A stretch of DNA of 16,400 bases. It comes from Thermoproteota archaeon (GTDB taxonomy: Archaea; Korarchaeota; Korarchaeia; B14-G2). The stretch is taken from NCBI GenBank assembly GCA_003661385.1, contig QMWA01000018.1:1-16400 (forward strand), in the 5' to 3' direction. The number at the start of each line of letters is the position of its first letter. Position 1 is the stretch's first letter. The translations under genes were made by a program, and so were the position numbers. Under the pieces are notes generated by a model, which worked only from the letters and a program-made list of their open reading frames with translations, made no database searches and was not told the origin of the DNA. Positions 2,195 to 5,276 of the stretch are shown piece after piece.

Positions 2195-4465
2195 TTGAGA
2201 AAGCTGCCTATAGTGCTGTTAGTGATTTTGGCTCTCTCTACACTACCATATGAGTTAGGGGAAGCACAGTCAGACATCTTGAGAGCTATAGAGAAGGCTT
2301 ATGAGTACTTCGCCACTATGCCAGGCCTCTATGAAATTATGAACCCAATGACCCAAGAGAGAGAAGTTGGGTTTTATGAGAACATCCTGATTGGTATGTC
2401 TCTTAGTTTTTGTCTTGAGAACGCTGAGTTCATGCCAGGTGTCTCTGAGCGTGAGAAGAGGGGGAAGGAGCTTCTCGAGAAGATAGTTGAGCTTGCACTT
2501 AGAAGTAATCGTGTAGAGAGGGGGTGGCGTAGCCCATTCTCAGGTGGAGTAGAGGACACGTATGTTACCTCCCATGTAGTTCTCCTACTAGTCAGAGCTA
2601 GCAAGATAGTTGGTGTGGAGAAGGAAGCTAAAGATGCTGCAGCAGGTTTAAGTAGCTTACAGGATAAAAGCGGAGGATGGGGGGCATTTCCAAGACATCC
2701 AAATAAAGATTACAGGAAGCCTGACCCTGGATTGACTGCAGTAGTCTTGCACACTTTGCTTGAGGCTAGAATAAGGGGCATCCCGGTGAGCGGAGATGTT
2801 ATAAGCAAGGCCATAGCTTTTCTCAAGGAAAGCACCAAGAAGACTGCAAATGGAGTATACTGGAGTTCTGATGAAAGAATGACCGGGTTGACAACAGGAG
2901 TCAGCACAGGATATGCTCTTGCCTCCCTTTGCTCAGCTAAGATGCTAGGATATGATGTAGACGAAAAGCTGCTTAGAGACGCAAAAAGGTGGGTAGTGAA
3001 CAGCTACTCCCAGTTTAGCGACGAATGGGATAAAATTCACTTGGCATGGGCGCTTAGCAGGTTAGCATTCATCGGAATGATAGAAAGCAAAGAGCTTAAG
3101 ATGCTTACACTCGATGACATAATCCTCTATGTGTCTACACAGGAAAATGGCTTACTCAAGGGAGGAGTCTTCAGAACAGCACTTGTTCTCCCAATGCTGT
3201 TTGACTACTATGAGGCCATAACAGTATATGCCACAGTCACCTTCACAGGAAAGGGTGTAGATGAGCTAGCCAAGCCTCCTATAATAGTCGAAGGAGGAGA
3301 GCTTACAGTATTCGTGACAGTCGAGAATGGAGCAGAGTACCGCCAGGCTCTTGAGGTTGAAGTCGAATACCCTAACGAATTCGTACTAGCAGCACGGAAC
3401 AAGCCTCCAAGTGAGCTTGAGCCGGGAGAGAAGGCAGTCTCTAGCTTTAAACTCAAGCATAAGGAGGGGATACAGCAGAGACATAGAGTCCAGATAGTAG
3501 TGTGGGTTAAGAGGAGGCATTTTGGAGTAGTTAAGGTAGCTTACACGACCACACTGGATTTCGAGGTAGTTAAGAACTCCAAGATAGCTCTCAGCAAGCA
3601 GGTATCGCCTAGCACAGTTGACCTTGGAGACAGAGCTAAAGTGAGAATCTTCCTCAAAAACACAGGAGACGTCTCGGCTAAGAACATCATGATAAGAGAG
3701 GAGCTCTATTCTGGAGCTGTGGTAGCAGATTTCAAGGATACTCCTCCATCGCTTTTTGTAGGGGGCTTTAGCATAGCCGAGCTTAAGGCTGGAGAAGAGA
3801 AAGTGTTCACATACGAGATTGAGCTAAGAGAAGCTCCACCTGGCAAAGTAGAGCTAGCTAAGACCACCTTAATGTACACTAATGCCCTTGGAGAGCCCAT
3901 GAACATCACAGCAGCCACATCTCTATCAGTGAAGAGGCCTCTCCTTAAGGTAGAAGCCTGGGTTGAGGATGCCGAGACCGGAGCCAACTTAAGTAGTGTA
4001 AAGTGGGGGCAGGATGCTAAGCTGAAGATCAAAGTCTGCAACATAGGGAACTCCTTAGCCAAAGATGTGTCTATAGACGTCAGCTGGACGCCTCAGCTAG
4101 AAGCTGAGAGCCATAAGCCTTCAACAAGGCTTGAAGCCAGCCAGCTAGAGCCAGGAGACTGTGAGATCTTTGAGATAAATGTAAGCGGCAAGAAATTCCT
4201 TATGCCACCAACCCAGGAAGCTGTTATCGTATCTGAAACACACTATTTGGATGCAAAAAACAACAGCTTGCCAACATACTATACCACAGCCCAGGTTGTT
4301 ATCAGGGTGGAGATGCCTAAGTGGATAATATATGCTGGAATATCGCTAGGAGCTATAGTAGCCCTGCTTGCAGCCGCAGTATGGGCTAGAAGAGAGGCCT
4401 CAAGGAGAATTAGACGTGAAAGGAGGAGAATAAGGAGGCCAAGGAGGGCATCTAGGCTTGGCTAA
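2195..4465 (+). CDS. Membrane-anchored alpha/alpha-toroid protein with CARDB-like domains
   Basis: TTG start, set by the GGGAGGT ribosome site just upstream. Residues 1-25 form a signal peptide (hydrophobic 5-17, then EAQS). Residues ~27-345 are helical repeats of the prenyltransferase/squalene-cyclase/alpha-2-macroglobulin TED type; the clearest are SGGWGAF (159-165) with PDPGLTAVVLHTL (176-188), and TTGVSTGYALASL (233-245). No DxDD cyclase motif and no thioester GCGEQ is present, so catalysis is unlikely. Three beta-sandwich domains follow (~345-460, 461-580, 581-705) with CARDB/DUF11 features such as KVRIFLKNTGDVSAKN. Sequons at N570, N598, N662 and N689 fit an outside location. A membrane helix (709-730) and a tail with 14 Arg in the last 27 residues end the protein, giving an outside ectodomain and cytoplasmic basic tail. 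It overlaps the next gene by 8 nt. Role unknown; surface binding or S-layer support is inferred. Confidence 0.8.
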   Translation: MRKLPIVLLVILALSTLPYELGEAQSDILRAIEKAYEYFATMPGLYEIMNPMTQEREVGFYENILIGMSLSFCLENAEFMPGVSEREKRGKELLEKIVELALRSNRVERGWRSPFSGGVEDTYVTSHVVLLLVRASKIVGVEKEAKDAAAGLSSLQDKSGGWGAFPRHPNKDYRKPDPGLTAVVLHTLLEARIRGIPVSGDVISKAIAFLKESTKKTANGVYWSSDERMTGLTTGVSTGYALASLCSAKMLGYDVDEKLLRDAKRWVVNSYSQFSDEWDKIHLAWALSRLAFIGMIESKELKMLTLDDIILYVSTQENGLLKGGVFRTALVLPMLFDYYEAITVYATVTFTGKGVDELAKPPIIVEGGELTVFVTVENGAEYRQALEVEVEYPNEFVLAARNKPPSELEPGEKAVSSFKLKHKEGIQQRHRVQIVVWVKRRHFGVVKVAYTTTLDFEVVKNSKIALSKQVSPSTVDLGDRAKVRIFLKNTGDVSAKNIMIREELYSGAVVADFKDTPPSLFVGGFSIAELKAGEEKVFTYEIELREAPPGKVELAKTTLMYTNALGEPMNITAATSLSVKRPLLKVEAWVEDAETGANLSSVKWGQDAKLKIKVCNIGNSLAKDVSIDVSWTPQLEAESHKPSTRLEASQLEPGDCEIFEINVSGKKFLMPPTQEAVIVSETHYLDAKNNSLPTYYTTAQVVIRVEMPKWIIYAGISLGAIVALLAAAVWARREASRRIRRERRRIRRPRRASRLG

Positions 4466-5123: not shown

Positions 5124-5151
5124 ATTAGCGGGGAGGAAGATGTTGGTAAGG

Positions 5152-5243
5152 CGGGCCCAGCGGGACTCGAACCCGCGACCTCCGGCTTAGAAGGCCGGCG
5201 CTCTGACTCTAGCTGTTAAAGCTCCTAGCTGAGCTATGGGCCC
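5152..5243 (-). tRNA. tRNA-Arg(UCU), with probable D-loop intron
   Basis: Read on the minus strand, the acceptor stem GGGCCCA pairs perfectly with TGGGCCC, the discriminator is G, and no CCA is encoded. The anticodon arm CCGGC-CTTCTAA-GCCGG gives anticodon UCU (reads AGA, and AGG by wobble). The T-arm GCGGG-TTCGAGT-CCCGC is standard. The D-stem GCTC/GAGC is intact but is separated by 27 nt rather than about 8-9, and the gene is 92 nt instead of about 73. Removing the 19-nt segment given separately restores a canonical 73-nt tRNA. Arg is encoded mostly by AGA/AGG here, so this is probably a major tRNA. It is transcribed divergently from the CARDB-repeat gene at 5414. Confidence 0.92.
5205..5223 (-). 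other. candidate 18-19 nt intron in the tRNA D-loop
   Basis: On the minus strand AGCTTTAACAGCTAGAGTC sits between G18-G19 and A21. With this cut, intron nucleotides 2-5 (GCTT) can pair with the first D-stem bases of the 3' exon (GAGC, one G-U pair), leaving GG|A and TC|A as 3-nt bulges: a relaxed bulge-helix-bulge substrate for the archaeal splicing endonuclease. Flanking helices are weak. Non-canonical D-arm introns are known in Thermoproteales tRNAs. The segment partly repeats the D-loop (AGCTAG occurs in both), so a local duplication may be its origin. Boundaries may be off by one nucleotide. Confidence 0.65.
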
Positions 5244-5265
5244 GATAAAGTGGTCTTTAGGAGGC

Positions 5266-5276
5266 TTATTAACTTT
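5266..5276 (-). promoter_or_regulatory. TATA-like box for tRNA-Arg
   Basis: The minus strand reads AAAGTTAATAA, centred about 28 nt upstream of the tRNA 5' end, the normal distance for an archaeal TATA box. Confidence 0.5.

Follow-up and report, generated by a model that had tools for sequence, protein, structure and literature searches.

Why does a tRNA gene whose stems are all intact carry a D-loop of 27 nt? The gene lies in the korarchaeal stretch of 16,400 nucleotides analysed here (the window), at 5152..5243 on the minus strand, and is 92 nt long with its extra bases. A sequence-only reading had proposed a short intron in the D-loop of a tRNA-Arg(UCU) that is otherwise intact, and both parts of that proposal stand: the intron is supported by motif rank, by alignment and by a twin in tRNA-Arg(CCU), and the spliced 76-nt form is called tRNA-Arg(tct). 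In our view the gene very probably contains a 16-nt non-canonical archaeal tRNA intron, placed at 20/20a and removed by the tRNA-splicing endonuclease, and this accounts for the extra bases.

A tRNA-Arg(UCU) gene with an oversized D-loop

Read from the window sequence, 5243 to 5152 on the minus strand, the gene runs GGGCCCA TA GCTC [AGCTAGGAGCTTTAACAGCTAGAGTCA] GAGC G CCGGC CTTCTAA GCCGG AGGTC GCGGG TTCGAGT CCCGC TGGGCCC G. Outside the D-loop the tRNA is complete, with an anticodon stem-loop of CCGGC CTTCTAA GCCGG, and it has orthologues in relatives of the same class. A TATA-like box, TTAATAAG, is found upstream at 5265..5272 on the same strand, spanning -29 to -22 relative to the 5' end of the mature tRNA. 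It may serve as the promoter; T/A-rich stretches occur at a similar distance upstream of many other tRNA genes in the genome.

The insert disturbs automatic annotation. On the unspliced gene (window 5150-5243) ARAGORN reports tRNA-Pyl(CUA), and the Rfam tRNA model covers the gene only from the D-arm onward, both because of the insert. We rejected the pyrrolysine identity as an artefact of the intron, since the spliced gene is Arg(UCU) with its anticodon stem-loop intact; ARAGORN named every spliced version, with 16 to 19 bases taken out, tRNA-Arg(tct). The misnaming and the partial match hide the tRNA for the commonest arginine codon of the window (AGA, 129 of 293 arginine codons in window genes, with AGG at 122 of 293), and the tRNA-Pyl call could mislead annotation. 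A search of the genome for a second UCU tRNA gene found only this one. As the single UCU gene, with AGA the commonest arginine codon in the window, it should be functional.

Borders of the predicted intron

We scanned every cut pair in the gene for the bulge-helix-bulge motif, in which a 4-bp helix separates two 3-nt bulges, each cut after its second base. The 16-nt cut AGCTAGGA^gctttaacagctagag^TCA ranked first of all pairs. It has 3-nt bulges GAG and AGT, four central pairs and five outer pairs across one A.A mismatch; its inner helix is weak, at only 2 bp (1 bp in tRNA-Arg(CCU)). On the minus strand, the central helix joins CTAG of the 5' exon (5225..5228) to the CTAG of the 3' intron strand (5209..5212). 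The 5' bulge, GA^G, occupies 5222..5224 and the 3' bulge, AG^T, 5206..5208, and the known geometry of the motif predicts cuts between 5223 and 5222 and between 5207 and 5206. The predicted intron, GCTTTAACAGCTAGAG (5207..5222, minus), falls between A20 and U20a and leaves a 76-nt tRNA with the D-loop AGCTAGGATCA. Scan and alignment agree on 20/20a, elsewhere than 37/38, which bears out the non-canonical position originally suggested.

The extent of the intron has to be revised. The sequence-only reading took 19 bases, 5205-5223, with a 73-nt product, whereas the best-supported interval is 16 bases, 5222-5207, with a product of 76 nt. Its description of 3-nt bulges around a 4-bp helix fits the 16-nt cut and fails for the 19-nt borders to which it was applied. 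No bulge-helix-bulge candidate with three or more central pairs had those borders.

How much weight can the motif bear? A 4-bp central helix together with a valid mature D-loop arose in 24-28% of trials with random inserts, and such a helix alone is therefore weak evidence; the full motif score of the 16-nt cut was attained by only 0.14-0.24% of them. Applied to introns at usual sites in the same genome, the scan ranked those of L016 and L013 (37/38) and L014 (T-loop) first, and it missed the likely intron as first rank in some genes, mainly those with long or several introns. For the isolated D-arm, the minimum-energy fold is -9.9 kcal/mol against -4.0 kcal/mol for the bulge-helix-bulge. The energy model counts neither for nor against the motif, since a similar gap is seen for the T-loop introns in L026 and L027.

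Comparison with the same tRNA in relatives, one of the checks suggested in the sequence-only reading, proved informative. Among genomes of the class, 17 tRNA-Arg(UCU) genes in 16 genomes are without the insert, at ~75 nt and with D-loops of AGCAAGGATA or AGCAAGGACA, and the D-loops of the relatives' arginine tRNAs measure 10-11 nt. A further search of the relatives for UCU genes overlooked by the first pattern yielded no additional tRNA genes. Alignment to the best match, an intron-free tRNA-Arg (L144) of class relative G002 with the D-loop AGCAAGGATCA, used no structure rule and returned a single insertion, exactly the 16 bases. Three lines thus point to one cut: the top motif rank, the alignment to an intron-free relative and the same borders in tRNA-Arg(CCU). 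Inserts within the D-arm of tRNA-Arg(UCU), or close to it, are also present in other archaea (for example L034, L064 and L082). Our pattern scan of a collection of 84,980 species genomes for tRNA-Arg(UCU) with inserts before the anticodon covered only acceptor stems starting with GGGCCC and is not a census.

The insert had also been said to repeat the AGCTAG of the D-loop, hinting at local duplication. There are indeed two copies of AGCTAG in the loop, the second within the insert. We do not adopt the duplication, since the repeat can be explained without it. CTAG is a palindrome, identical to its reverse complement, and an intron that has to pair with the CTAG of the exon should in any case contain a second CTAG; this partner accounts for the repeat. 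The eight bases between the cores of the two copies (GCTTTAAC) are unlike the exon bases downstream of A20 in the mature gene (TCAGAGCG).

Other readings of the extra bases can be weighed against this evidence. The same machinery could act at other borders, releasing a 17- or 18-nt intron and leaving a 75- or 74-nt tRNA, which we judge unlikely. The 18-nt cut is the runner-up when a normal spliced D-loop is required, scoring 10 against 11, and the 17-nt cut would produce AGCTAGGACA, a 10-nt D-loop resembling the AGCAAGGACA of the relatives' UCU genes L057 and L058. Yet of the four central pairs, only three form at the 18-nt cut and at most two at the 17-nt cut, and neither cut equals the insertion obtained by alignment to the best-matching relative.

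It is very improbable that the gene has no intron and that the mature tRNA keeps an enlarged D-loop. The insert is able to form a small hairpin of its own, but a loop of 27 nt is far beyond the 10-11 nt of the relatives' arginine tRNAs, the bulge-helix-bulge borders are common to a second tRNA, Arg(CCU), and inserts stand at intron sites in many other tRNAs of the genome. We give least credence of all to the idea that the gene is damaged, that it is a pseudo-tRNA gene or that the assembly is in error. Fragmentation of the assembly (206 contigs, 91% complete) would allow for this, but all stems are intact, the gene is the sole one found for UCU while AGA leads the arginine codons of the window, and an insert of the same type lies in Arg(CCU) on a different contig.

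Splicing machinery, intron load and a twin intron

A single EndA is encoded, a protein of 367 aa in which two catalytic-type domains are fused (alpha2-type). Crenarchaeal subunits are the nearest match to its C-terminal half (3p1z, E 2.8e-32). The specific-loop lysine of A. pernix (K44 by residue count) aligns with a lysine in this protein, and a lysine is found at the same position in all eight class and phylum relatives aligned. Efficient removal of relaxed-motif introns has been ascribed only to (alpha beta)2 and epsilon2 enzymes, with the specific-loop lysine required (PMC6379350), and Korarchaeota are described as having an alpha2 enzyme with such a loop alongside non-canonical introns (PMC4033280). 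RtcB is encoded as well (L228/L229, G000:C181, 2538-3718). The RtcB gene is divided between two frames, and each of the two matches contains an internal TGA; the cause may be a frameshift, an error in sequencing or some other event.

The motif, the cut given by comparison and the enzyme genes are present; from these we infer cleavage and ligation. In the precursor, CTAG in the D-loop of the 5' exon would pair with the 3'-proximal CTAG of the intron to form the bulge-helix-bulge. The fused alpha2-type endonuclease, with its loop lysine linked to broad specificity, would then cut within both bulges (GA^G and AG^T), after which a ligase, for instance RtcB, would join the exons into a normal 76-nt tRNA-Arg(UCU) reading AGCUAGGAUCAGAGC.

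The intron is one of many in this genome. By reference-guided alignment in this assembly, ~33 of 39 tRNA genes have at least one insert and several have two or three; the count is a rough one, most of all where Leu and Ser genes are concerned. Inserts in the D-loop are also carried by Ala(UGC), Arg(CCG), Arg(GCG), Ile(GAU) and a Pro gene; the motifs of those scored are weaker, Ala's least so. T-loop introns are found in L014, L025, L026 and L027. Relatives have D-loop inserts too, for example in a Trp gene (L223, G002) and a Lys gene (L195, G026). Other introns of the genome measure 10-14 nt, so the shortness first thought special does not set this one apart. On contig G000:C2, tRNA-Ile(GAU) and tRNA-Arg(GCG) (L168, L169) apparently have three introns each, one of them in the D-loop. 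Three Val isoacceptor genes (L028, L162 and L187) have in common an insert of 13-14 nt at ~25/26 (TCACTAGCATAAG, TCCGCTGTGATAAG and TCGATAGCATAAA).

The twin of the D-loop intron lies in tRNA-Arg(CCU) (L186, G000:C25, ~3223-3310, minus), together with a canonical 37/38 intron. That gene reads AGCTAGGA^gcagatagctagag^TTA, with the borders and the CTAG/CTAG helix of Arg(UCU), a different spacer and an intron of 14 nt. Its predicted mature D-loop, AGCTAGGATTA, matches the AGCAAGGATTA of Arg(CCU) L218 in relative G017. The similarity of the two introns was equalled by 8 of 20000 shuffles, or by 352 of 20000 with CTAG held fixed, and across the phylum the shared pattern had one match beyond this genome's two genes (L193 in G015).

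These observations suggest a tentative and rather doubtful broader reading. Transposition of introns or gene conversion may recently have spread D-loop introns among the arginine tRNAs of this lineage (the same intron in UCU and CCU, other inserts in the same loop of CCG and GCG), in the presence of a fused, single-chain endonuclease that has the specific loop. This would be an independent case of Thermoproteales-type intron expansion. As sharing is seen only between isoacceptors, transposition on the one hand and gene duplication or conversion on the other are equally likely.

Comparison with known archaeal introns

The sequence evidence indicates an element of a known kind, probably an ordinary and well-supported non-canonical archaeal tRNA intron, with an intron common to two isoacceptors as a modest extra. 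With introns at the D-loop, 25/26, 29/30, 37/38 and the T-loop alongside a fused endonuclease, the genome is a good test case, and the published idea that the enzyme's specific loop opened the way to non-canonical introns could be tested on it.

In Thermoproteales, similar introns in different tRNAs have been taken as a sign that introns transpose (Fujishima 2010, as cited in PMC4033280). The sharing seen here is alike in that Arg(UCU) and Arg(CCU) have one intron position in common, as do three Val genes at ~25/26; unlike that case, the sharing seen here is between isoacceptors only. The system also resembles that of Korarchaeum cryptofilum (PMC4033280), with a fused EndA whose loop has the lysine and an intron-rich genome from what is presumably the same class, although our host belongs to another family of that class and seemingly has more introns than relative G002. 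D-loop and T-loop positions of non-canonical archaeal tRNA introns are already published (PMC8450103, PMC6379350). The Arg(UCU) intron is like the bulge-helix-bulge introns of those papers in its short insert, D-loop site, motif and accompanying enzyme; its gene and lineage do not appear in them, and its splicing is predicted from sequence.
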